From a virus, in the IMG/VR virus record IMGVR_UViG_3300037882_001819, positions 1-63,777 of that record: 63,777 nucleotides of DNA; one strand, 5' to 3'. Below the pieces are notes generated by a model that was not told where the DNA came from, searched no databases, and saw only the letters and a program-made list of their open reading frames with translations. Each line of letters opens with the position of its first letter. Position 1 is the stretch's first letter. Below are positions 1 to 63,374 of this stretch, piece by piece. A program made the translations under genes and the position numbers.

Positions 1-1729
1 CCAGGGCCTCCGCAGCCGCTGCCGCTGCCTGGGCGGCCTTAATCGCCTCTTGCTCTGCCGCCTTGCTGGCTTTAGAGGCGGCTATGGATTTGGCGGCCTT
101 AACTGCCCCTTCTTTAGCGTCCTTTGGCCACGCTGCCCATTCTTCAGGGGTGACTGGTACCTGGTCATTAACCAGCTTGTACAGGGATTCGTCGATAGCT
201 TTGGCTACCTGTACTGTCTTTAGGTTTGGTATGGCATCCAACTGCTCCTTCAAGCTGCCCGCCTTTAGAGGTAGGTAGTCAGCAGGCAGCAGACTATCCA
301 GGTCCACACCATGGGCCACCAGCACCTTCTCGTACTCAGGCACGTCTAGCACGTTCTTGCCCGTCAGGTTAAACGGCCCCAGGTTGTACTGGGCCTGCAA
401 GGCATCTTTAGACTTCTGGATATCCTTGGCCGCCTTAGCCGCCTTTTTGGCCTTGTCTAGGACCGCCTTTTGCTCCACCAGGTTCGTAGCCTGGAACAAC
501 TCCACCGGGTCCACCAGGTTGAAGTTTGCAGCTATGTCTTCATCTACCCCCGTCGCCCCCTTGATCACCTTGGCGATACCGCTGTCCTTCATTACCAGCT
601 TGCCGTCGCCTACGTCCAAATAATCCTCGGGTAACAGCCCATACTTCTTCCCGTAGTGGGTTACTGCCATGCCCTGCTTTGTCTTGTAGCTGTGGGCCGC
701 CTTCTCTGCTGCCACCTTGGCCGTCTTGGCTGCCAAGGCTGCCGCCAGGGCTTTGGCCGCCGTGTCCTTAACCTGCTTTTCGGCTGCGAACTCTTGGATG
801 TACTTTTGCCCGTCAGCCAACGCCCCACCCACCATCTCGGGCACGCCTGGTATCCACGCGCACCTGCAACGGGGGTGGAAGGGGATTAGGCCCCGGGCCT
901 CCTTGGTGCTGTAGGTCTTGCCCGCCTGGGCCTTGCACTTTGGGCATACTTTGCTGTCCCCAGCCGTCAGCCACTCCACCGCCAGGGTAACCGTATCCAC
1001 GCCCAGGGTATCCATGGCGTCCAGTTGCCCTTCTGCATAGGCGTACTGGAGCTCGTTTTGGGCAAAAAGGGTCGCCCGGCTTTTGCTGAAGCCCACCCCG
1101 GTCTGCATTGCTTTGGCGACCGTCCGCACGTCATCGCCCCGGGCCATACCGGTGGCCAGGATCTGGTGCAGGTTGGACTCCATGGCCTGGGTAATGTTTT
1201 GGAGGTAGGTGTACTCCCGGCTGTAAATGGTCGCCAGGCTTTTAACCGAGGTGGGTCCGTTGAAGGCTTCCGCCAGCCAACTGTTACCGCCCCACGGGTC
1301 CTCCGGTAGCACGCCCTTCACCGCTGCATGGGTATCCGTCAAGGCCTTTTTGTAGACAGGCCGCACGTACTGCTCCCACCAGGGCACCTGTGCCCCGTGT
1401 GGTCCGGTCTCGGCCTCCAGCACACCGCTGGCGAGCTGGGCCTGTAGCCAGGTTTGGAACGCCGCTAGCTTGGCCGGGTCACTAGGCAGGGCATTGGCCA
1501 CGAACGTGCGGCCCAGGCTGCCCTGGTGCATTACCCAGGCCCCTACGGCCTTGGCCAGGTGGGCCATCCGCTTTTCCATGGCCGCCACGAACACCTGCTT
1601 CTCCCGCCACAGCCCTGCCGGGTCTAACCGCCTGGCAAGGGCAAGGGGGCTAAGCTTAGGCGTCTTCTTCTTCGTCTTCTTCTTCGTCTCCGTCTTCCCC
1701 TGGGTCGCCTTTGCCTGGTTTGCCACCAT
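1..1729 (-). CDS. MuF/SPP1 gp7-type minor head protein, runs off left edge
   Basis: This is a minor head morphogenesis protein, expected inside the capsid near the portal. The reading frame is open from the portal tail to base 1 with no stop, so the C-terminus is missing. The central part reads as the MuF domain: an NELQYAYAEG segment, then EWLTAGDSKVCPKC, then IPFHPRCRCAWIP, which are the paired Cys and HPxCRC residues typical of the family. Beyond it the protein becomes Ala/Lys-rich and probably helical. The ATG at 1729 lies inside the portal gene and gives a Lys/Thr-rich N-terminus; an ATG at 1579 is an alternative. Both have a GGAG about 17 bases upstream, so the start is uncertain. Family assignment is firm. 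Confidence 0.85.
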   Translation of the reverse strand, partial: MVANQAKATQGKTETKKKTKKKTPKLSPLALARRLDPAGLWREKQVFVAAMEKRMAHLAKAVGAWVMHQGSLGRTFVANALPSDPAKLAAFQTWLQAQLASGVLEAETGPHGAQVPWWEQYVRPVYKKALTDTHAAVKGVLPEDPWGGNSWLAEAFNGPTSVKSLATIYSREYTYLQNITQAMESNLHQILATGMARGDDVRTVAKAMQTGVGFSKSRATLFAQNELQYAYAEGQLDAMDTLGVDTVTLAVEWLTAGDSKVCPKCKAQAGKTYSTKEARGLIPFHPRCRCAWIPGVPEMVGGALADGQKYIQEFAAEKQVKDTAAKALAAALAAKTAKVAAEKAAHSYKTKQGMAVTHYGKKYGLLPEDYLDVGDGKLVMKDSGIAKVIKGATGVDEDIAANFNLVDPVELFQATNLVEQKAVLDKAKKAAKAAKDIQKSKDALQAQYNLGPFNLTGKNVLDVPEYEKVLVAHGVDLDSLLPADYLPLKAGSLKEQLDAIPNLKTVQVAKAIDESLYKLVNDQVPVTPEEWAAWPKDAKEGAVKAAKSIAASKASKAAEQEAIKAAQAAAAAAEAL

Positions 1730-3311
1730 TGCCCGCACCAGGTGGGCCTCCAGAGCCTCCGCCACCGTCCTGCCCGTCCCCGTCCCCATTGCTACCATCG
1801 CCTGGTCCCCCTAGGTGTTCATTCACTTTGTTGAAGAAGCCGTCAGCCCCGCCTAATTCGTCCAGTGCAGCTTCCAATATCGCTGCCGCCTCTGGTTTGC
1901 TGAAGCCCATAAACTTGATCAGGTACTCCAACGGCGGTACCAGGATTTTCGCGTTGCCGCTTACATAGGTGCTGAGGGCATTGGTACGCTTAACCAGCAC
2001 ATCCGCTTTTTCGTCCTCGCTCTGCGTGTACAGGTCCGGCCACTTGCACCGTGGGAGGCGTAGCGTTTTGTCTGGTGTGAAAGGGCAGTCGGCATGCGCC
2101 ACAGGTGGCAACACGCCCACGCGCATCAGCCGCTCAGCCAATGGCATGAGCATAACGGGCTGGGCATGGTCAACCCGCCTTTTGCCCACGCTGTCTAGCC
2201 ACTTCTTTGTATCCTGACCGCTGGCTAACTGCCCAGCTTCCGCCCCCATAAGTATCCGCATGGGGATATCATAGGCAATAGCCAGGAGCCGGAGGTTGCC
2301 GTCCAGGTGGGCTGTTGGGTCGCTGACCTGGCCCGCCAATACTTTGGCTTCCAACCCGGTCAAAGCTAAGTACCTTTGCAGGCCCTCCTGGAAGGCACCC
2401 AATTCCGCCTTCAATTCCTTCACTTCCTCCGGTAGCAAAGCCACCGGGGTGGCACTGTTTTGCTGCACCGCCAAGCCGGGGAAGCCACCCTTCCAAAACA
2501 TCTCGCCGCTGCCGCCCATCACCTTGCGGATGTCCATAATGCGGTTAAGGCCCCGTTCCATACGGGGCATGCCGAACACTTCGCTGGTTAAGAGGTTGTC
2601 GGCCACGTGGACCATGCGAGTCCAGTGGACCATTAAATTAGTCATCCGCACCTCAGGCTGCCCGCCTGCGCTGTAGCCGTCATAAGATTCGATGTTCAAG
2701 TTGTACTTTAGGGGCTCCCCGAACCTGTTACTGTTGGGGTTACTGTCCAGGTGGACCGGTGCACCGCTCTCCGCCACTACCCGCACGTATGCCAGCTCGG
2801 TTAGCTGGGGCGGTGTAACCCACTTGCCTGGCGTGGTATCCGTGCCATCCTGCCAGCCAGGTGCTGCCAGGTCCGTGCCCCCGGGCAAGCCTAGGAAAAG
2901 CCCACCATAACGTCCAATGCCGCTCACCACGTCAACCCGGTACAACTTGTTCATTAGGTTATGGGCTGCAACCAGGCTGGCCCAGGCCCCCTCCCATGGT
3001 GTCTGTGTGTCCTCGTCCTCGTCCTCGTACATATCGGGGGCTTCTTCCCATGTGGCCTTAGGCCACATCTCCACAATACGGGCTGCAATGTCGCCCCGCC
3101 TGAACAGCTTCATATAGTCGGTGGGACCGGGGGCAACGGGGTACCTGCACTCCGTATCGATATCCCGGGTACCGTTTTGGCCCTCCCCAAATATGCCTGT
3201 GCCCATTAGGCTGGACCGACTTAGCAAATAGTTCAGTACCATTTGGGCAGGTGGTGACAGTCCAGCCCCTGGGTTTTGCATTACGTTTTTCCCTGTGTTT
3301 GTAGCAACCAT
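1656..3311 (-). CDS. Portal protein (DUF1073-like)
   Basis: A 551-residue protein with the size and look of the DUF1073 portal family, which forms the dodecameric DNA gate at one capsid vertex. Residues about 25-130 hold the conserved start of the family (GTGIFG, then DYMKLFRRGDIAARIVEMWP). The C-terminus is a low-complexity Gly/Asp/Glu tail ending in an acidic run. The ATG at 3311 follows GGGGGTAGGTA. It is followed at once by the MuF minor head gene, the usual order. It lies after an intrinsic terminator and several small genes, and about 2.5 kb from TerL rather than next to it. Confidence in the portal call is high because neighbour and family agree. Confidence 0.88.
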   Translation of the reverse strand: MVATNTGKNVMQNPGAGLSPPAQMVLNYLLSRSSLMGTGIFGEGQNGTRDIDTECRYPVAPGPTDYMKLFRRGDIAARIVEMWPKATWEEAPDMYEDEDEDTQTPWEGAWASLVAAHNLMNKLYRVDVVSGIGRYGGLFLGLPGGTDLAAPGWQDGTDTTPGKWVTPPQLTELAYVRVVAESGAPVHLDSNPNSNRFGEPLKYNLNIESYDGYSAGGQPEVRMTNLMVHWTRMVHVADNLLTSEVFGMPRMERGLNRIMDIRKVMGGSGEMFWKGGFPGLAVQQNSATPVALLPEEVKELKAELGAFQEGLQRYLALTGLEAKVLAGQVSDPTAHLDGNLRLLAIAYDIPMRILMGAEAGQLASGQDTKKWLDSVGKRRVDHAQPVMLMPLAERLMRVGVLPPVAHADCPFTPDKTLRLPRCKWPDLYTQSEDEKADVLVKRTNALSTYVSGNAKILVPPLEYLIKFMGFSKPEAAAILEAALDELGGADGFFNKVNEHLGGPGDGSNGDGDGQDGGGGSGGPPGAGNGGKPGKGDPGEDGDEEEDEEEDA

Positions 3312-5814: not shown

Positions 5815-7245
5815 CTACAACGCACCTACCCGGGCCGTGCCCACCAGGCCCATGTACGCCAGGCTACTACCGTCCACCTGGTCACTATATTCCCCATCGG
5901 GAAAGAACGCCAATTCATCTGCATAAGGGAACAGCCAGGCCGCACCAATAGGCACGAAAACATTCCCCCCGTTAACCTGGCTGGCGAAGGTGTCGGCCCG
6001 CAGCTCCTTGCTGCCCGTAGGACGGATGGCCCGCACCCGGTAGCCCGCCAAGTCCCGCAGGGACATTAAGGCATCGAACTTGCCCGAGCTGCCCCCCTCC
6101 TCTTCCATAAGCACCCGCACGTTAATGCCGTCCGCCACCGTAGTAGCCCGCATCCGCTTGTTCCGCTCGTCAGGCCCCCACTGGCCCCGCCTAACGTCCA
6201 GCACCCAAATGCTTCCATTCTTGTGCATGCCCATCTTCACCCCGCACGTGTACTTGCCCCCGCCGTCCGTAATGGCTTTGTCCCACGCCCGCACGATCTG
6301 CACGAACTCGCTGTCCGGTGGGACCTGCTTGGCGTTCAGCAAGAGCTTGGCACTGTCGAACATGCCCCCGCCGTCCGGTATGGGGTCCTGCATGACCTGG
6401 CCAGCGTAGCCGTAAACGCCCAGCTCTAGCTTCATGTTGCCCAGTACCTCTTCGCTCAGCCTGTCCGGGTCCAGCAGACCGTTAACGTACCGCTGGCGTA
6501 GCTCTCGCGGGCGCACCATGCGGCCCAGTCGCCCAGGCAGGCTGTAGTGCTTAACAGGCGTGCCCCTGGTTAGGAATACATCCGTTGGGTCCAGGCGGTG
6601 GATACGCTGCATGGTTAGGAAGGTTATGGACCTCTTTTTATCCGTCTTGCGCTGGCTTATGGTCTCCGCCGTCCAGATACGGGCCGTCTTTAGCTCTGCC
6701 TTACTGCGTCCGCCTATGGGGTCTAGTGGATCGTCGATGCTGATAATGTCCCCGTGCATACCCATAACGCTGCCGCCCACGGTGCAGGCATACCGGCCCC
6801 CGCCCAGTGTGTTGCCCCAGTGGGACATTCGGTTCTTATCGTCCAGCAGCTCAATCTCGGGCCATAACTTCTGATACAGTGGTGACTCCACCACCTGCCG
6901 GGCCGCCGTGCTAAGCTCGAAACTTAAGGGCTGGCTGAAGCTGGCCCCAATGAACCGCAGCCGTGGGTTCACCGTCCACGCCCAGGGCACGCTGTGAATG
7001 CTGAACACGGTAGACTTCGTGGTACCCGGGCAGATGTTGGTTACCACATCGTACTCACGGGGCAGGCCTGCATGGTGCCGCCTGACCTGCCTTTCGAACT
7101 CCCCGGCTAGTAGGGGTATGTGCCAGTTCCACTTAAAATCGTGGCCGAAAGTTGTCTTGGTAAACACCCTGAGGAAATTAAAGTAACTGCTGGAACAGTA
7201 ATTGCGCAGGCTGGCGTAGTAGTCGACACTTGGGGCAGCGTTCAT
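5815..7245 (-). CDS. terL: Terminase large subunit (TerL)
   Basis: The DNA-packaging motor. A 476-residue protein with an ATPase half and an RNase H-fold nuclease half. The phosphate loop is the degenerate PGTTKST (about residues 73-79), and Walker B is DIISIDD (166-172). The nuclease begins at RAWDKA, with Asp322 as the first metal ligand. The start at 7245 overlaps the stop of the desaturase gene (ATGA); longer in-frame extensions run into that gene without a ribosome site. Portal lies about 2.5 kb downstream, with small genes in between. The TerS-like gene is about 8 kb upstream, an unusually loose packaging cluster. Confidence 0.92.
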   Translation of the reverse strand: MNAAPSVDYYASLRNYCSSSYFNFLRVFTKTTFGHDFKWNWHIPLLAGEFERQVRRHHAGLPREYDVVTNICPGTTKSTVFSIHSVPWAWTVNPRLRFIGASFSQPLSFELSTAARQVVESPLYQKLWPEIELLDDKNRMSHWGNTLGGGRYACTVGGSVMGMHGDIISIDDPLDPIGGRSKAELKTARIWTAETISQRKTDKKRSITFLTMQRIHRLDPTDVFLTRGTPVKHYSLPGRLGRMVRPRELRQRYVNGLLDPDRLSEEVLGNMKLELGVYGYAGQVMQDPIPDGGGMFDSAKLLLNAKQVPPDSEFVQIVRAWDKAITDGGGKYTCGVKMGMHKNGSIWVLDVRRGQWGPDERNKRMRATTVADGINVRVLMEEEGGSSGKFDALMSLRDLAGYRVRAIRPTGSKELRADTFASQVNGGNVFVPIGAAWLFPYADELAFFPDGEYSDQVDGSSLAYMGLVGTARVGAL

Positions 7246-7802
7246 AGTTGAGGCCCTTGGGGCTGCACGCCAATTGCGGCCAGTACCCACTCTACACCCC
7301 GCCAAAACCCCAGCAGGTCTAGGACCGGGTTTACCCAGCAGGTCATAGGGCAATAAGCACGCCTGGAGAGATGCTTGGGGTCAACCCGTATGCCGTCTGC
7401 ATAGTGGTGCCTGTCGTGGTGCTGCCGGGGGATGAATAACCCCGTCCACTGCATAAACCGGATGGCCTTGCCCAGCTTGGCCCGGGGCTCATGCGCCCAC
7501 CTGTGCACCAGGTTGGCCACGCTGGTAAAGGTCACGCCCAGCCACAGCCACACGGGCACACCCAGCAACCACAGCACCAGGCCTAAGGGCCACGCGAAGT
7601 AGGCCGCAGACCGCATATTATCCCACCAGCCCACCAGGGTGATGGCGGTAGGGTACCTGTGGTGGTGCAGGTTGCCCTGTGCCATAGACTGGAAGAGTTC
7701 TAGGGTGGTATTTTCACCCATGTACCGGTCCTCCACGAAGTGGAATACCCCGGTTATAAAGTCGGCTAGCAACCAAGCCGCCAACACGTGAAATAAAATC
7801 AT
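7242..7802 (-). CDS. CarF/PEDS1 (TMEM189-type) lipid desaturase
   Basis: A 186-residue membrane protein matching the lipid desaturase domain of CarF, Kua and PEDS1, enzymes that desaturate alkyl-ether phospholipids to vinyl-ether plasmalogens. His-containing motifs appear in family order: DFITGVFHFVED (D14, H21, D25), NLHHHRYP (H46-48), NLVHRWAH (H100, H104), QHHDRHH (H128-133). Then comes the family ending CWVNPVLDLLGFWRGVEWVL. Hydrophobic segments lie near residues 1-20, 66-100 and 115-125. The start at 7802 has AGGAG seven bases upstream. It is translationally coupled to TerL by ATGA, so it should be made late. I know of no standard phage role; remodelling of host lipids is inference. The family call is strong, the substrate is unknown. 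Confidence 0.85.
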   Translation of the reverse strand: MILFHVLAAWLLADFITGVFHFVEDRYMGENTTLELFQSMAQGNLHHHRYPTAITLVGWWDNMRSAAYFAWPLGLVLWLLGVPVWLWLGVTFTSVANLVHRWAHEPRAKLGKAIRFMQWTGLFIPRQHHDRHHYADGIRVDPKHLSRRAYCPMTCWVNPVLDLLGFWRGVEWVLAAIGVQPQGPQL

Positions 7803-7854
7803 GCTAGGTCTCCTGGGGCACAGCATACCACAGGCGGCCTGGCGTTGCCACTGC

Positions 7855-8313
7855 TTAAAACCCGGCCCGCTTTAGGGCCTTGTTACGCTTGCGGTTACTT
7901 AGGTGCTTTTGTGCTGCGGCCTGGGCTGCCTGTGCTTGCCTGGCGTCTAGGCGGGCTGCTGCTAGTGCCTTACGGGCATTACTAGCCTCCGCCCGTCGCT
8001 CTAGCCTGTTACGGGGTTTAGGGGTGCCCTCTTTCTCTGTCCCCATGGGTATGCCCCCAACTGTAAAATCCGAAAACCCCCGGGCTTTGTCCCATGCCCG
8101 GGCTGCACCCCCATAAGCCTTGGCGAACGCCGGGTCGTACAGCACCACCTTCCGCTGGATGTTGCACTCCTGCCACGTGGGGCAATGCCGGGCCACCATC
8201 TCCAGCAACTCCGCATCGGTCCTGTCCGGTTGCTCCTCAAAGTCGGCCCACTTGCTGGTACCGTCCTCGTCGGTGTAGTACACCCTGAACGCTAGTCTAC
8301 CACTTTCCATCAT
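7855..8313 (-). CDS. Hypothetical protein with Ala/Arg-rich helical tail, 152 aa
   Basis: Unrecognised. The first 80 residues look globular (FRVYYTDEDGTSKWADFEE). Residues about 95-150 form a charged, Ala-rich helix (NARKALAAARLDARQAQ). The start at 8313 uses the first of two tandem ATGs, five bases after AAGG. A start 18 codons upstream would lie in the terminator loop and is not supported. It begins right after the terminator at 8326-8398. Confidence 0.6.
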   Translation of the reverse strand: MMESGRLAFRVYYTDEDGTSKWADFEEQPDRTDAELLEMVARHCPTWQECNIQRKVVLYDPAFAKAYGGAARAWDKARGFSDFTVGGIPMGTEKEGTPKPRNRLERRAEASNARKALAAARLDARQAQAAQAAAQKHLSNRKRNKALKRAGF

Positions 8314-8325
8314 TCCGCCCTTATA

Positions 8326-8398
8326 AAAAAACGTGACCGGGTGGTGACTATGCACCAAACATTCCAAAGCACCCTTGCGGCTAGTGGCACCCGGTCAC
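8326..8398 (-). terminator. Terminator-like structure with 11-bp stem
   Basis: GTGACCGGGTG (8388-8398 on the minus strand) pairs perfectly with CACCCGGTCAC (8333-8343). The 44-base loop holds a further ACTA/TAGT pair, and the structure is followed by seven T. The stop codon of the SLOG gene lies inside the first arm. The loop is long for a standard terminator, so it may be regulated or protein-assisted. Confidence 0.55.
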
Positions 8399-8961
8399 TG
8401 GTCTACATCGCCCCCAGGGTTTTGGTTCGAGTTCTTGTTTAGGTACTGCCTATCGAACTCTGCTGTGTCAAATGCCGCTCGTTCACGGCGGTAATCCTCG
8501 GCCCACGCGCCCTTGTCACCCATGGCCTCCATACCGGCCCAGTGCCGTGCTTTTTGGGTTTCCCGCAGCCCTGCCTTGAACCTATCAACCACATTGGCCC
8601 ACCCCGTCAGGCCAGGCGGTGGCAGCGTCACCACACGCACCCACAGGCCCTGCTCCAGGGCAGTCTGCACCATGTTGGCTGTACCCTTGCTCTGCCCGTC
8701 CCAAAGGGCCAACAGGGCATCGGCCACGGTCGCCATCTGCGCATTCCGTACCATGCCTGCCCCCTTGCCCGTGGTCCAGTCCGCTGGGCAGGCCAGCACA
8801 GGCCGCCCTGTCGCCCCGGCCCATTGCCTACCTGCCAGGTCCGGCCCTGTCGCCATGCCACACACCACGCCGCCGTATTTGTACGGGGGTAGCACGTAGG
8901 TGATGATGCTGAGGGCCACGTCCTGCGGAATGCTACGGCTGCCTGCAATTACAATCTTCAT
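8395..8961 (-). CDS. SLOG-family (YspA-like) protein
   Basis: A Rossmann-like SLOG domain, 188 residues. The N-terminus MKIVIAGSRS is the family's nucleotide-binding loop. It is followed by VVCGMATGPDLAGRQWA, PADWTTGKGAGMVRN and ALLALWDGQSKGTANM, all in the order seen in YspA/DUF2493-type proteins. These occur often in phages and probably bind or process a nucleotide or nucleotide-derived ligand; the phage role is not known. The C-terminal 60 residues are charged and family-independent. The ATG overlaps the stop of the upstream gene (ATGA). Confidence 0.75.
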   Translation of the reverse strand: MKIVIAGSRSIPQDVALSIITYVLPPYKYGGVVCGMATGPDLAGRQWAGATGRPVLACPADWTTGKGAGMVRNAQMATVADALLALWDGQSKGTANMVQTALEQGLWVRVVTLPPPGLTGWANVVDRFKAGLRETQKARHWAGMEAMGDKGAWAEDYRRERAAFDTAEFDRQYLNKNSNQNPGGDVDQ

Positions 8962-33409: not shown

Positions 33410-34207
33410 CTATACTGCCCTCTTTCCTACTATCCAAAAAAGATCGCCCGGCAGCAGCCAGGCCACACACTTAGCTTCGTACACAGGGTCGAGTTCTATG
33501 TACCCCGGCCACAGGCTGCCCAGTACCGTGGCACTAACGTGCGTATCGTACCCCACCAGCCTACCCTCTAGGTCCACCCCGTCTACCAATGCAGCCCCGC
33601 CCAGGGTCTGCCACATAGGGCACCACCTGCTGATATTCTTTACCGGGTCGCCACCTACACGCACGCCCACCACCGGCACACCGTACCGCCTGGCCGCCCG
33701 CAAAACACCTGCAAAGGTAGTACCACTGCCGACCGGCACCACAATGCGGCTGGGGGTGTGCACCGCCAAAACGCTGTTCGCCATCCTCTCCGTAGCCTGC
33801 ACCGGTAAAGGGTGCTGCATGCCGTAGGGGATCTCCAACCACCCCGGGTTCGCCTTGGCGTGGACGGTTGCCCACCGGGCCAGGTTGTTCGCGTAACCGC
33901 CCTTCCGTTGTTCTATGGTCGCCCCATGGGCTGCGGCATCCAACATCTGCGGCCCATATTCGCCGCAGGGGCAAAACACGTGGCACGGCAGGCCCCTGGC
34001 CGCTGCCACCCTGGCGACTATGGCCACCTGGGGCGAACTGCGGCTGCCGCCCGTTACCAGGCCCTTAACGGTCTCCCGTCGCCGGTCCTCCAGTATGGCC
34101 AAACAGCCCCGCACCTTAGTGCCGTAGATGCCCGCAAACTCGAACAAGTCATCCCGCCAGGCCATGCACTTTACGCCTGCTGGTGTCGTTATGTGTTCTA
34201 ACCGCAT
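33410..34207 (-). CDS. PLP-dependent enzyme, fold type II (ACC deaminase/D-cysteine desulfhydrase-like)
   Basis: A 265-residue protein with the fold II pattern: WRDDLFEFAGIYGTKVRG supplies the Schiff-base lysine (Lys31) as in ACC deaminase; GGSRSSPQ (53-60) replaces the usual GGxQSNH; VVPVGSGTTFAG (157-167) is the phosphate-binding Gly loop. It is shorter than cellular enzymes (about 330). It probably acts on a small amino acid or a related compound; no partner pathway is visible here. Located between exonuclease and MazG genes, overlapping the former by ten bases with GGGGGT before the ATG. Confidence 0.75.
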   Translation of the reverse strand: MRLEHITTPAGVKCMAWRDDLFEFAGIYGTKVRGCLAILEDRRRETVKGLVTGGSRSSPQVAIVARVAAARGLPCHVFCPCGEYGPQMLDAAAHGATIEQRKGGYANNLARWATVHAKANPGWLEIPYGMQHPLPVQATERMANSVLAVHTPSRIVVPVGSGTTFAGVLRAARRYGVPVVGVRVGGDPVKNISRWCPMWQTLGGAALVDGVDLEGRLVGYDTHVSATVLGSLWPGYIELDPVYEAKCVAWLLPGDLFWIVGKRAV

Positions 34208-37484: not shown

Positions 37485-38132
37485 ATGTTGAATAAAATTC
37501 CGGGTAACTGGATGCTTGCCGATGCGTGGGTTGACCACCAACTGGCCCGCCACCGTACATCGTGGCCCACAGACATTATCCACCCACGGGTATGGGCGGA
37601 GGTGGCTGCTGCGGGTCCCTGGCGTTCCGTGCTACACTGCACCACCAGCCCCCGGGCTTGGGTGACTAGACGGGAAGCCTTTTTGCCTGGCGTGGAATAT
37701 TGGTCATACAACAGGCACACAGGCGACCGGGCCATCGAGTTTTATTGCCTGACCTCTGAAGGCCACGCCGCCTTAGCTGGCCGCCGTCGCTCGCGGGGCG
37801 ATCCGAGGAAGTGGCACGATGCCATAGAGCTAGTGGGCGGGGACCTGCGGCTATGGGCCGCCATGCACGGGCAGGACCCGGTGCAGGTAACCCTATGGCT
37901 AGGGTACCTAGCCGGTAGGGTGCCGTGGCAACTGGTCCAACGTATCCACCGCGACCTGGTGGCCCTGCCGGGCGGGCCAGAGCTTTGCCAGGTGCTGCCC
38001 CTTAACCAGGTTTGGGACGTAACCCTGGCCGCCGTGCTGCACTGGTGCCCCCACAAGGCCGCCTACTACATGGCCGCCATGGGCACCCTGTACAGCAAAT
38101 ACCTGGCACGCGCCCACAGGAAAACCCCCTAG
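37485..38132 (+). CDS. Hypothetical Trp/His-rich protein, 215 aa
   Basis: Unrecognised soluble basic protein, first gene of the only plus-strand block. Rich in Trp and His (PWRSVLHCTTSPRAWVTRR, WHDAIELVGGDLRLWAAMHG). No ribosome site lies before the ATG at 37485; an ATG at 37512 is possible. It is divergent from the histone-like gene, and its upstream region overlaps promoter E, so the two may compete. Codon use matches the rest of the phage. Confidence 0.6.
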   Translation: MLNKIPGNWMLADAWVDHQLARHRTSWPTDIIHPRVWAEVAAAGPWRSVLHCTTSPRAWVTRREAFLPGVEYWSYNRHTGDRAIEFYCLTSEGHAALAGRRRSRGDPRKWHDAIELVGGDLRLWAAMHGQDPVQVTLWLGYLAGRVPWQLVQRIHRDLVALPGGPELCQVLPLNQVWDVTLAAVLHWCPHKAAYYMAAMGTLYSKYLARAHRKTP

Positions 38133-38174
38133 GGTCCGATTAACAGGGATGCTGCCGGTCCTATGCGGGCCGGG

Positions 38175-38183
38175 TGGTATAGT
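38175..38183 (+). promoter_or_regulatory. Possible extended -10 promoter
   Basis: TGGTATAGT: a perfect TGn extension and the same TATAGT hexamer as promoters A and B, but no -35 match at the proper distance. It would give a leader of about 360 bases for the ATPase gene. Confidence 0.3.
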
Positions 38184-38223
38184 ATGGGCCGTTGCACAAA
38201 TTCGGTAAAACGCTTGAAATTAT

Positions 38224-38340
38224 ATGGCGGTGAGTAAAGAGGACCAGCCATTGCAACGGCAGGCCCAGGGTAGCACCTGGGAGGATTGGAAGAGGGATTC
38301 GCAACCCCGCAAACCGTCTACTGGGAACCCAAATGTGTAG
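38224..38340 (+). CDS. Possible 38-aa small protein
   Basis: ATG to TAG frame encoding a hydrophilic peptide (MAVSKEDQPLQRQAQG, then STWEDWKRDSQPRKPS). Charge and Trp content look protein-like, but there is no ribosome site (TTGAAATTAT before the ATG). It may be a leader peptide, a small gene, or chance. Confidence 0.28.
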   Translation: MAVSKEDQPLQRQAQGSTWEDWKRDSQPRKPSTGNPNV

Positions 38341-38550
38341 GCAACGCCGTACCCTGCGCCCTACGACCTTATATGGATGCTAGAGAATACCCAGTGCTAG
38401 GACAGTCCTAACCTAACTGAATGTATATCAGTCAGTGCGTACCAATACCAACGCTAAATCCTGGTATCCAGCCAGGGATGAATGGGGGCGGTGCGTTTTG
38501 ACCCCGCTTTTACGATGTAAGTTAGAACCCTTTTTAGACCTGAGGACCCT

Positions 38551-40299
38551 ATGCACTTTAATATTACAGTTCGTGGCAAGATGGTGAAGGCCACCAGCTT
38601 CCAGAATATAGTTACCCGTTTTTGGGGCAGAGTATACTACGGTAGCGATGAGGTTTGCCTTAACCTTGGGCAGCTTACGACTAAACGGCTAGCGGAATTT
38701 AAGCAGTACCTAACCGACTACGGGGGCGAAGGCAAAACCAACACGCCGGGGCTGCTGCGGGATGTGGCTTTGTACGAAAGCCTAAGGCAGGCGAATACCA
38801 CCCTGGCCATAATGCAAAAAAGGCCCCGGGCACTAGAGCAGATGGTGCCCATGCTGTGCCACCTGGCCTGCAAACTACCCGGCCAACGCCTTTGGGCACG
38901 CGAGGACGATAGCAGCGAAAACGGGGTATGGTTGCCCTACCTGATCACCAGGGCAAGCTACGAGCACGCCAGCAGGGATAACCCCGCTTACGTCCGCCTG
39001 CGCATGAAGTACGTGCAGCACGGATCAATAAGGGAACAAATTATCACCTGGCACTGGTGCGATGTGCAAGGCCGCAGCCTCCAGGCCACCCTAGCCGATG
39101 AGGGGTACTATGCCCCTACGCCTGCGGTACTGGCAGATTACGAATACGACCTGGAACTATTCCATGAATACATAGAGGTGGTGGGTCGCCAATTTAATGC
39201 CAGTGGCTGGGGCTGGTTCCAGGGGGTGGATGATGAACTAGACGGTGAGAGCCGTCACGGGGACGGTTACAGGTTAAGCCCGGCTGGGCTGCCTACCAGG
39301 GTAGTGCGGGACGTTAACAATGAGGCCGACAAAAAGCCCGAACGGGGCAGCATGTACGTGGAAGATATACGCATGTGGTTCGAAGACACGGACGAGGACG
39401 GGGAACCCATAGAATTGGATTACGAGCGGGATGAGGAGGGCAACCGCATGCCCCCGGTGCCGCCGACACACCCCTACATCATCTGCCACGATATGGACCG
39501 CCACAGGCGGGTGGCCATACACGCCCGCAACTTGACGCCCTACCAGTACAATACCAAACTGGCAGAACAGCTAGTGCTGCCGGAGGGCCATAAGAACCTA
39601 ATTGACTTGCTAACGCGCACCAACGCCAGGGCGTTTAATGACGTGGTGTCTAATAAGGCTGGGGGCGTGGTCATTATCTGCCAGGGTCTGCCAGGCACGG
39701 GGAAAACCCTAACGGCTGAGGTTATCAGCGAAGTGCAGGAAAGACCCCTGTATAGCGTCCAGTGTAGCCAGCTAGGCATTGAGGTGGACGATATCGAATC
39801 TAACCTCATGGCCGTCTTAAAACGTGCCAGCCGCTGGAATGCGGTAACCCTGCTGGACGAGGCTGATGTCTACCTTATGGCCCGGGGCAGCAGCCTCAGC
39901 CATAATGCCATCGTGGGCGTGTTCCTGCGGGTCCTAGAATACGCAGCCGGTACGCTGTTTTTGACAACCAACAGGCTGGACGCGATGGATGATGCCATTA
40001 CGTCCAGGGCCGTTGCAGTCCTGCACTACGGGGTGCCCCCGGTGGCTGACCGGGTACGCATCTGGCACAACCTACTGGCTGCCAATAACGTGCCAGGGGT
40101 TAGCGGTGCAGGCGTGTTGGCCTTGGCCCAATTGCCCCTGTCAGGCCGGGACATAAAAAACAATCTGAAACTTTGTTTGCTTATGGGCCGGGAGGTCACT
40201 TGCAGCAATATAGAAGATTTGCTACAGTACAGGCCATACGGGACCGATAAACACAAAAAGGAACCACAAAATGACACAGCAACTCGACAAGAAGATTGA
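38551..40299 (+). CDS. BCS1-like AAA+ ATPase
   Basis: A 582-residue protein. The first 340 residues are unrecognised, with an acidic stretch (FEDTDEDGEPIELDYERDEE). The C-terminal part is an AAA+ module: Walker A GLPGTGKT (about 379-386), Walker B VTLLDEADVYL, sensor 1 LFLTTNR, and arginine finger region ITSRAVAVLHYG. This resembles BCS1/classical AAA proteins that unfold or remodel proteins. GAGGA before the ATG at 38551. It is followed by a small gene and a methyltransferase in an overlapping operon; substrate unknown. Confidence 0.82.
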   Translation: MHFNITVRGKMVKATSFQNIVTRFWGRVYYGSDEVCLNLGQLTTKRLAEFKQYLTDYGGEGKTNTPGLLRDVALYESLRQANTTLAIMQKRPRALEQMVPMLCHLACKLPGQRLWAREDDSSENGVWLPYLITRASYEHASRDNPAYVRLRMKYVQHGSIREQIITWHWCDVQGRSLQATLADEGYYAPTPAVLADYEYDLELFHEYIEVVGRQFNASGWGWFQGVDDELDGESRHGDGYRLSPAGLPTRVVRDVNNEADKKPERGSMYVEDIRMWFEDTDEDGEPIELDYERDEEGNRMPPVPPTHPYIICHDMDRHRRVAIHARNLTPYQYNTKLAEQLVLPEGHKNLIDLLTRTNARAFNDVVSNKAGGVVIICQGLPGTGKTLTAEVISEVQERPLYSVQCSQLGIEVDDIESNLMAVLKRASRWNAVTLLDEADVYLMARGSSLSHNAIVGVFLRVLEYAAGTLFLTTNRLDAMDDAITSRAVAVLHYGVPPVADRVRIWHNLLAANNVPGVSGAGVLALAQLPLSGRDIKNNLKLCLLMGREVTCSNIEDLLQYRPYGTDKHKKEPQNDTATRQED

Positions 40300-40573
40300 C
40301 CAGCTCCGCGAACTATGTGCACAGGGCGACTACCACGCAGCCCTGCGGCTTGCAGCTAGTTGGCCCCGCCTTGGGGTTTACAAAGAAGAAATACAACGGG
40401 GCTGGGCCGCAGCCAGTAACCCTAGGACATATGCCGAAATGGGTTTGGACCCCTTGGCACTGGCTAGGACAGGCGTGGAGGCCCTACGTGCCAGCTACTG
40501 CCCCAAGGGTGTAAGCTGGCCAGCCTTTGACCGCACCCGCATGCCACAACTCTCTAAGGTTTACAATGGATAG
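40271..40573 (+). CDS. Small conserved-looking phage protein, 100 aa
   Basis: Helical: KKIDQLRELCAQGDYHAAL, LAASWPRLGVYKEEIQRGW, NPRTYAEMGLDPLALARTG. This pattern (GD..AL..AA..PRLG..K..I..G) recurs in phage proteins of unknown function. AAGGA eight bases before the ATG, and 29 bases of overlap with the ATPase gene. Confidence 0.65.
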   Translation: MTQQLDKKIDQLRELCAQGDYHAALRLAASWPRLGVYKEEIQRGWAAASNPRTYAEMGLDPLALARTGVEALRASYCPKGVSWPAFDRTRMPQLSKVYNG

Positions 40574-41513
40574 CCTGCTGCCCCTTGGCCTTGCTGGCGT
40601 CCCCCTGGTTAACACCAGCCTGGGGCCGCTTAAGCGCACCTACACGATGCCGCCCTTTAGCACGTGGGACACACGGCAGGCCGATTGGATAAACCGTCGC
40701 CACCTGTGGGTGGGCCGGGGCATTAAGAGCGAACAGGGCCGGGCCGACCGCCTGACCTACACGATACCGGAGCTGCTGTCCGATGGGACCCGGGCAAAAA
40801 AGGTGGAAAGTAACACCAGCGTTTTCGACCCCGTGGTGTGCGAGCTGGCCTATAGCTGGTGGTGCAAGCCTGGGGCAGTGGTGCTGGACCCTTTCGCCGG
40901 TGGCAGTGTCCGGGGCGTTGTGGCCAGCCTGATGGGGCTTAAATACTGGGGCTGTGAACTGCGGGCCGAACAGGTCGCAGAGAACCAGGCCCAACTCGTC
41001 AACCCCATGCTCTACGGGGCCTATAAACCGTTTTGGGTGTGCGGGGACAGCTTGCAGGTGTTTAGCGGTGCCATGGGCAGGCTGCCACCCGATGCGGACC
41101 TAATATTCAGTTGCCCGCCCTACGGTAACCTGGAAGTATATTCGGAGGACCCGGCAGACATAAGCAACCGAGCCACATTTGGCGAATTCCTAATACCTTA
41201 CGGCCAAATTATCGCCAACACAGTGGCCAGGCTGAAACAGGATAGGTTCGCGGTGTGGGTGGTTGGCAACTACCGGGACGCCCAGGGCAATATGCTCGAT
41301 TTTGTGGGTGAGACTATCCGATGCTTCCAGGCCGCTGGGGCGGCATACTACAACGATATCATCCTAATTAACAGCGTGGGCAGTGGTGCCATGCGGGCAG
41401 AGAATACCTTTGGCCCGGCCCGTAAGATTGTTAAGCTCCACCAAAACGTCCTCGTATTTGTCAAGGGCAATGCCAGGGCTGCAACGGCCTGGGTAAAGGG
41501 TGAAAACGGCTAG
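40566..41513 (+). CDS. DNA methyltransferase (N4-cytosine/N6-adenine type)
   Basis: A 315-residue S-adenosylmethionine-dependent enzyme. Motif I is VVLDPFAGGSVRG (about 105-117) and the catalytic motif is FSCPPYGNL (181-189), an SPPY/DPPY variant of amino-methyltransferases. The motif spacing suggests no large target-recognition domain between them. No restriction partner is nearby, so it probably protects phage DNA or regulates. The start at 40566 overlaps the previous stop by eight bases with AAGG upstream. It ends seven bases before the convergent glycosyltransferase gene. Confidence 0.85.
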   Translation: MDSLLPLGLAGVPLVNTSLGPLKRTYTMPPFSTWDTRQADWINRRHLWVGRGIKSEQGRADRLTYTIPELLSDGTRAKKVESNTSVFDPVVCELAYSWWCKPGAVVLDPFAGGSVRGVVASLMGLKYWGCELRAEQVAENQAQLVNPMLYGAYKPFWVCGDSLQVFSGAMGRLPPDADLIFSCPPYGNLEVYSEDPADISNRATFGEFLIPYGQIIANTVARLKQDRFAVWVVGNYRDAQGNMLDFVGETIRCFQAAGAAYYNDIILINSVGSGAMRAENTFGPARKIVKLHQNVLVFVKGNARAATAWVKGENG

Positions 41514-61995: not shown

Positions 61996-62862
61996 CTATT
62001 TCGGTAGTGGTAATGTGTCTGCGTCAGGGTCCGGGTACATAGCCCGGATCGCCACGAACTCATGGTGTTTGGTTGTGTTCTTCAGGTGCTTGGCCCAGCT
62101 AATCCAGGCCCGTCCTTTTTGGCCGTAGCTTAGGCCCCAGCTTCCCTGGTGGTCGTACTCGTATTCGCCTTTGGCGTTAATGCGAACATCGTCGGCATGG
62201 ATAGCATGGTTGCCCGGTCCGTTAAGGCAGGGCAGTACCACGCCGTTAGCGTCCAGCTTGAACCAATTGTCGGTTACGTCGCACGCTAGCAGCACTAGCC
62301 AGTTAAGGGCCAGGGCACTGGCGAGTTCATCATCGCTATGGATGCCCACGATCTCGCCTTCAGCAAGTCGGAACCGCTTAGCTGACATTTGGGCTTCGGG
62401 GCCATGGTCCCGCTTCAGGTAACTTTGGTAGGGCACCATCTCGCGTATGGCACAACCCTCGAAAGCCACCTCGATAACCCGTCGCAATACGGCCCCGCTG
62501 TCACGCCCGCCGTTAGCTTTGGCGTAAATGTACTCAGGCCCCAGCTTCACCCTTTTGCCGTACTGCCTTTTGTACTGCTTCTCCATCATACCGCCCGCAG
62601 CGTAGCCCGCGCAACTGCTGCGCTGGCCCTGGTTTAGCACCCAATCGCTATCGAACTCAACCCGTGCCGTGGTGCGGCCAGGGGCGGCCAGTACCTTACT
62701 AATCTGGTCCCGTGTCAGGCAACCAATCTTGTCTTCGAACGTGGTATAGCTGACCCGCTTGCCACCCTTCTCTAAACGCAGCCCAGTGCAAACGCCTTGG
62801 ATAGGTGTAGGGGCGGTGCCCACCATTTCGCTGAGTAATTGCAGTTCTTCGTTATTGGTCAT
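61996..62862 (-). CDS. Papain-like (C1A) cysteine peptidase
   Basis: A 288-residue peptidase. Catalytic region LNQGQRSSCAGYAAGG gives the oxyanion Gln78 and nucleophile Cys84. GNHAIHADDVRI gives His219. HQGSWGLSYGQKGRAWIS (239-255) matches the family NSWG...WG..G segment, with Gln239 where Asn is usual. No signal peptide. In head regions such peptidases may process virion proteins. As no peptidoglycan hydrolase is visible, it could also open a proteinaceous host envelope; this is inference. The start overlaps the previous stop (ATGA). Confidence 0.78.
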   Translation of the reverse strand: MTNNEELQLLSEMVGTAPTPIQGVCTGLRLEKGGKRVSYTTFEDKIGCLTRDQISKVLAAPGRTTARVEFDSDWVLNQGQRSSCAGYAAGGMMEKQYKRQYGKRVKLGPEYIYAKANGGRDSGAVLRRVIEVAFEGCAIREMVPYQSYLKRDHGPEAQMSAKRFRLAEGEIVGIHSDDELASALALNWLVLLACDVTDNWFKLDANGVVLPCLNGPGNHAIHADDVRINAKGEYEYDHQGSWGLSYGQKGRAWISWAKHLKNTTKHHEFVAIRAMYPDPDADTLPLPK

Positions 62863-63374
62863 GGCTCTAGGTACTGGTTGATAGTGTCGGTACTGGGTGG
62901 GCAAGGTACTGCCAGGGGTATAGTACCATCCGGCATAATGGCCAGCAGTGCAGGTGGTCCCACTTTGTCCACTGCTGCCATGTACGGTTTAATCTCCGGC
63001 AGGTTCACATCGTACCAGCCGTACTTATAGCCCCGTGCCTTTAGGCCGTCCCAAAACGCTACGCTCTTCTGCAAGGTCGCTAGGTGTGGGTACTTGTTAC
63101 GGTGCTCGGTCTCTTCCACGATAACGAGGTAGGCACCTTTAGGCACCAGCACCGTATCGGGTATAGGGTCCGGGGTTGGCGTTGGCCCCGGGCCTGGCGT
63201 TGGGTCCGGTAGGGGCTGCGGTATGGGCGGTAGGGGTATAGGGCTTGGGGTACTGCGGTGGATGAACCACACGCCACCCAAAACCAAAGCCGCCCATACG
63301 CTGCACACTGTTACCAGGGCTCGCAACGTGACGGGCTGGCTTGCCTTTGTTCTTGGTTTTCTTTTAATTGGCAT
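62859..63374 (-). CDS. Membrane-anchored protein with Pro-rich linker, 171 aa
   Basis: A basic start (MPIKRKPRTKAS), a membrane helix (about 19-39), a Pro/Gly/Thr-rich linker (residues 43-75) and a C-terminal domain of about 90 residues with a thioredoxin-like pattern (AYLVIVEETEHRNKYPHLA, ALLAIMPDGTIPLAVPCPP) but no CxxC. It would sit outside the inner membrane. It overlaps the upstream gene by 11 bases and the peptidase by four, so these act together. Confidence 0.6.
   Translation of the reverse strand: MPIKRKPRTKASQPVTLRALVTVCSVWAALVLGGVWFIHRSTPSPIPLPPIPQPLPDPTPGPGPTPTPDPIPDTVLVPKGAYLVIVEETEHRNKYPHLATLQKSVAFWDGLKARGYKYGWYDVNLPEIKPYMAAVDKVGPPALLAIMPDGTIPLAVPCPPSTDTINQYLEP

Follow-up and report, generated by a model that had tools for sequence, protein, structure and literature searches.

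A phage-encoded Lipid_desat protein next to the large terminase gene and its relatives in phages and bacteria

The window analysed here, the whole 63,777 nucleotides of IMG/VR virus record IMGVR_UViG_3300037882_001819, carries a gene for an apparent membrane lipid desaturase directly ahead of the gene for the large terminase subunit. This raises the question of which reaction such an enzyme would catalyse and why it would be made together with the DNA packaging machinery. The original prediction, made from the sequence, was a plasmanylethanolamine desaturase of the CarF/PEDS1 type that would form vinyl-ether lipids (plasmalogens) and might alter host membranes for lysis, oxidative stress or superinfection exclusion.

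The gene, its operon and its superfamily

The gene occupies positions 7242 to 7802 of the minus strand; from an ATG start it encodes 186 amino acids. A Shine-Dalgarno-like AGGAG (7810 to 7814, minus strand) lies 7 nt ahead of the ATG at 7802, and this start is therefore favoured over an in-frame ATG at 7826. In a profile search the protein matched PF10520 (Lipid_desat) with 92.1 bits (cut-off 26.4; 5.3e-26) over positions 1 to 172 of 175, and the genome search gave 2.4e-27 for the same family. A match so far above chance, together with the ribosome-binding site, bears out the reading frame as a real gene, and the proposed HMM search thus placed it in Lipid_desat over almost the whole domain.

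The TGA stop codon of the gene (7244 to 7242) and the ATG of the following gene (7245 to 7243) overlap in an ATGA at 7242 to 7245 on the minus strand. The following gene (5815 to 7245, minus strand), directly downstream in the same operon, was identified by PHROGs as the large terminase subunit (terL, 6.3e-59), so that the predicted translational coupling to TerL held up. The portal gene lies further downstream in the late block (1656 to 3311, minus strand; PF06381 2.4e-14, PHROG portal 9e-46). Upstream of the desaturase is a called gene of 152 amino acids in the same direction (7855 to 8313, minus strand), for which no Pfam or PHROG match was found, and just upstream of the operon, at 8395 to 8961, is a SLOG/YAcAr-like protein (PHROG "GTP-binding domain", 5e-22).

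Alignments located the eight family-wide histidines at H21, H47, H48, H100, H104, H129, H132 and H133, in agreement with the positions first listed (H21, H46-48, H100/H104, H128/129 and H132/133). Seven of the eight do not vary among 35 sequences and the other one hardly does, and the histidines are kept with few exceptions, as is an essential aspartate, D25, which follows H21 by four residues as D100 follows H96 in the mouse enzyme. The predicted C-terminal GFWRGVE segment is also present, with W167 and E171 nearly invariant in the alignment. These features place the phage protein in the CarF/PEDS1/FAD4 (Lipid_desat) superfamily, with its eight catalytic histidines intact.

The AlphaFold model, built on a 35-row alignment, was all helical (pLDDT 94.3, pTM 0.89), with long hydrophobic helices at residues 2-27, 59-79 and 84-102, and predicts a membrane fold with confidence. 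The only significant structure matches of the model were two viral proteins (TM 0.65-0.69), of which one bears the name Lipid desaturase of Harvfovirus, and a PDB fold search with it returned nothing significant. No PHROG family matched the desaturase. A single weak PDB sequence match, to MurG, was put down to chance, and the protein has no sequence relative in the PDB.

These searches also bear on whether the enzyme could be a membrane lipid hydroxylase, with fatty-acyl or sphingolipid chains as possible targets, instead of a desaturase. His-box enzymes can shift between desaturation and hydroxylation, the yeast 2-hydroxylase Scs7p appeared in the PDB fold list (none of which was significant), and the FA_hydroxylase profile (PF04116) gave a weak cross-match of 20.5 bits (7e-4), below its cut-off of 31. 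The Lipid_desat match, however, is clear over the whole length where that of FA_hydroxylase is sub-threshold, and the spacing of the eight histidines is of the Lipid_desat type, which leaves a hydroxylase rather unlikely.

Within groups of relatives, pairwise dN/dS was 0.04 to 0.37, and the protein is therefore kept by purifying selection in these relatives. A conserved histidine is lost in L054/L055 and in L042 (HH to NH; HH to LH), and the L056 copy is truncated, hinting at decay in some lineages; because of these few copies, the gene seems dispensable for some phages. The histidine losses, together with the location of some relatives in lysis cassettes, could suggest a catalytically dead membrane protein that serves as a holin, antiholin or exclusion factor. 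This is highly improbable, since the histidines are nearly invariant across 35 diverse sequences, all close relatives of the window protein included, and the same cassettes already hold separate holins.

Comparison with CarF/PEDS1 and FAD4

The residues needed by mouse PEDS1 are known from mutants. Eight histidines shared with plant FAD4 are essential (H96, H121, H122, H187, H191, H215, H218 and H219), D100 is essential and F118 nearly so, and a ninth histidine found only in PEDS1, H131 (H113 in CarF), gives a mutant that keeps about 7% of activity and has no function in the CarF assay (PMC8960569, PMC7149458, PMC9131029). In M. xanthus, homologues from plants and Alphaproteobacteria without the ninth histidine failed to stand in for CarF (PMC9131029).

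The window protein shares with CarF/PEDS1 (TMEM189) the PF10520 domain, the eight essential histidines, the aspartate (D25 for mouse D100) and the C-terminal FWR..E. It differs at both of the remaining positions, with N44 at the F118 site, three residues before the HH box, and V57 at the site of mouse H131 and CarF H113. The "full set" of histidines originally claimed thus holds for the eight universal ones and fails for the ninth, specific to PEDS1. The protein is also shorter, with 186 amino acids against 270-280, and, with the first histidine as reference, its start lies about 75 residues further in than that of PEDS1, so that the first, N-terminal transmembrane helix of PEDS1 is missing; the model has three long hydrophobic helices, as opposed to the four transmembrane helices of PEDS1. 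Plant FAD4, a phosphatidylglycerol delta-3-trans desaturase, is likewise a PF10520 protein with eight histidines and no ninth, but it keeps phenylalanine at the F118 site where the window protein has asparagine (PMC8960569).

A wider set of relatives was collected for a tree. A single-sequence scan of viral contigs returned no relatives, whereas alignment-based scans found a homologue in 47 IMG/VR contigs, and a tblastn search of annotated phages added two records, one of them Erythrobacter phage vB_EliS-L02; together these make 27 viral groups at 80% nucleotide identity. A scan of genome contigs supplied bacterial members, as did family searches, which found them in 6 of 247 genomes in the phylum of an Acidobacteria MAG and in 28 of 246 in the phylum of a Planctomycetota MAG. 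No plasmid relatives were found. The tree omits the truncated L056 as well as authentic animal PEDS1, CarF and FAD4 sequences.

The tree splits into two sides with support of 99/95, and the residue at the F118 site follows its clades. The F side holds 26 bacterial rows, the majority of which have the ninth histidine, and a single viral protein, L003. The other side, termed N-type for the asparagine at the F118 site and also marked by the lack of the ninth histidine, holds the window and 25 viral groups, 26 viral rows in all, and 11 bacterial rows. A Bacteroidota member, L018, with leucine at that site, also falls here. Besides the window, this branch takes in 26 of the 27 viral groups found, a share to be read with the bias of pattern-based scans towards sequences that resemble their phage seeds; its viral groups come from P2-like, Mu-like and other phages. 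The window falls in a clade with L005, L013 and L006 (100/99), apart from a second N-type clade of 22 viral rows (96/84). The phylogeny against bacterial homologues that had been proposed as a check therefore set the window protein apart from the members with F and H, in a tree to which authentic PEDS1 and CarF did not contribute.

The N-type bacterial proteins, from Acidobacteriota, Gemmatimonadota and Planctomycetota, share the branch, the asparagine and the lack of the ninth histidine with the window protein, the nearest of them (L014) being 38% identical to it. They differ in being cellular genes and in lacking the hallmark of the clade to which the window belongs, an insert of about 9 residues behind the HH box. 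The homologue in Erythrobacter phage vB_EliS-L02 (UIS25202.1, annotated as hypothetical) is, as in the window, a phage N-type gene, located just before the portal gene, but it is 29-34% identical and its phage is unrelated to that of the window.

Taken up again with these results, a true plasmanylethanolamine desaturase that forms vinyl-ether plasmalogens from host alkyl-ether lipids appears quite improbable. The superfamily, the eight common histidines and the essential aspartate are as it would have them, and the roughly 7% activity kept by mouse H131A means that the missing ninth histidine alone does not exclude some PEDS1 activity. Against it stand the two functionally tested positions, F118 and H131, the placement in a clade other than that of the members keeping both residues, the failure of homologues without the ninth histidine to replace CarF (PMC9131029), and the score with the NCBIfam CarF equivalog model NF045946, 30.3 bits. 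The 500-bit cut-off of that model is not decisive by itself, because F-type bacterial proteins also fall short of it at about 150 bits; N-type bacterial proteins reached 81-100 and the giant-phage protein L003 reached 90. The reading also presumes an ether-lipid substrate, though no host could be assigned. Searches with nucleotide and protein sequences found no close relatives of the window phage, its capsid protein has Brevundimonas phages as nearest named relatives (32-33%), and the Planctomycetota matches of its TerL (about 31%) are no better than those in named phages of many hosts, for which reason no host was assigned. The CarF/PEDS1-type identity first proposed is thus disfavoured, while PEDS1 activity might still occur as a side activity.

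The one viral protein on the F side lies at 5992-6450 of L003, an uncultured 595-kb phage (LR756511.1), and has the eight histidines, the ninth, and the equivalents of D100 and F118. By these residues, it has a stronger claim than the window gene to be a PEDS1 encoded by a phage.

Gene neighbourhoods and proposed role

The neighbours of N-type genes in bacteria gave some indication of the substrate. In the genome of a Planctomycetota sample (L091/L096), the gene directly follows those for CdsA (CTP_transf_1, 1e-64) and a PlsC-like acyltransferase (1.6e-7), and in Algoriphagus (L018, 3825-6703) the divergent Lipid_desat with leucine at the F118 site lies between two classical FA_desaturase genes. 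These two loci point to phospholipid acyl chains as the substrate; the remaining bacterial loci examined had no link to lipid genes of that sort.

Among the phages, the genes lie in late blocks. In five groups (L023, L024, L034, L043 and L059) the desaturase is close behind endolysin or spanin genes. L023, L024 and L043 have a holin-like protein, Phage_lysozyme and Rz-like genes followed by the desaturase, and L023 and L024 also have a called Rz1-like lipoprotein; in L034 the upstream endolysin is an Amidase_2, and in L059 the desaturase stands between an Amidase_2, immediately ahead of it, and an Rz-like gene. Rz and Rz1 were named here from layout, overlap and lipobox, independently of any family match. 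Four PHROG holins are among the upstream neighbours. In L024 the genes after the desaturase lead to the baseplate gene gpJ of a P2-like phage, which, given the gene order of P2, puts the desaturase at the end of the P2-type lysis cassette.

Packaging genes are the other frequent neighbours. In the Mu-like L012, L036, L044, L045 and L048 the desaturase immediately precedes TerS and TerL or lies between them; it is near TerL in L006 and L007 (divergent in L007) and near the portal gene in L002/L008, L046 and L056. Other groups have it among head-completion genes, with Mu Gp36 and Phage_tail_S among the upstream neighbours. In most groups its start overlaps the end of the upstream gene or comes within a few bases of it. 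Counting the window as one of 28 groups, we find the desaturase within about three genes of an endolysin, TerS, TerL or portal gene in 16 of them, where about 8 would be expected by chance from gene counts in a 38-kb phage, a rough inference from groups that are not independent.

In light of these findings, the N-type protein is probably an integral-membrane di-iron lipid desaturase or closely related hydroxylase that acts late and edits the chains of host phospholipids. It would be made late together with the packaging genes, insert in the host inner membrane and use host iron and electron donors to oxidise a hydrocarbon chain of a host phospholipid, the most likely reaction being the introduction of a double bond into an acyl chain. 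The altered membrane might then, more speculatively, aid the end of infection, through holin- or spanin-driven membrane disruption or the release of particles. The neighbourhoods of the relatives give genuine, though indirect, support for such a role in lysis, and nothing was found in favour of the originally suggested roles in superinfection exclusion or oxidative stress.

The main rival to this proposal is an ordinary moron gene that serves membrane fluidity during infection, with no link to lysis, at a site that tolerates insertion. With some relatives found near PhoH or in modules for the head or tail, the position may merely reflect tolerated insertion sites, and the locations vary among phages between the lysis end, the terminase and the head-tail junction. 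A precedent comes from cyanophages, whose lipid desaturases are linked to membrane fluidity in a passage of PMC9600351 that cites Roitman 2018. Less in keeping with the idea are the tight start/stop overlap in most groups and the repeated location, in 16 groups, next to terminase or portal genes or where lysis cassettes end, which look less random, with the reservation that groups are not fully independent. A moron gene is thus a possibility of some weight that we would still doubt. The cyanophage enzymes resemble the window protein as phage-encoded membrane lipid desaturases, and they presumably belong to the classical FA_desaturase family, not to PF10520.

With a similar degree of doubt, the desaturase proposal can be extended to a widespread and unrecognised class of lysis-stage phage di-iron lipid desaturases, made with the holin, endolysin and spanins or with the terminase and with an activity unlike that of PEDS1 or FAD4, which might modify host phospholipids and so ease envelope breakage or particle exit. 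Phage lysis is usually described as the action of proteins, with holins, endolysins and spanins acting on membranes and wall. If true, a lipid-modifying enzyme in or beside lysis and packaging modules would add lipid chemistry to that picture. The N-type proteins also form a further branch of the PEDS1/FAD4 superfamily. No earlier report of PF10520 proteins in phages, or of phage links to CarF, Kua or plasmalogens, was found in the open-access literature; the superfamily is already known, and what appears to be new is the N-type branch, how widely phages carry it and its link with the modules for lysis and packaging.

Against the proposed role in lysis, the desaturase of the window has no lysis gene beside it, and no endolysin was recognised over the whole length. 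No tRNA genes were found in the window. At the end of the late block (61999-63152) are a papain-like protease (PF00112, assigned by sequence) and a thioredoxin-like neighbour, which may form an unusual lysis set; a similar-looking pair of a secreted protease and a thioredoxin-like protein lies just ahead of the desaturase in L027. A pyridoxal-phosphate dependent enzyme at 33413-34207 (PALP 5e-16, ORF assigned by eye) is unusual amid the replication genes. Nearly all of the phage genes run in one direction, and the sole sizeable plus-strand block, at 37485-41513, carries an AAA+ ATPase and a DNA methylase, both assigned by eye.
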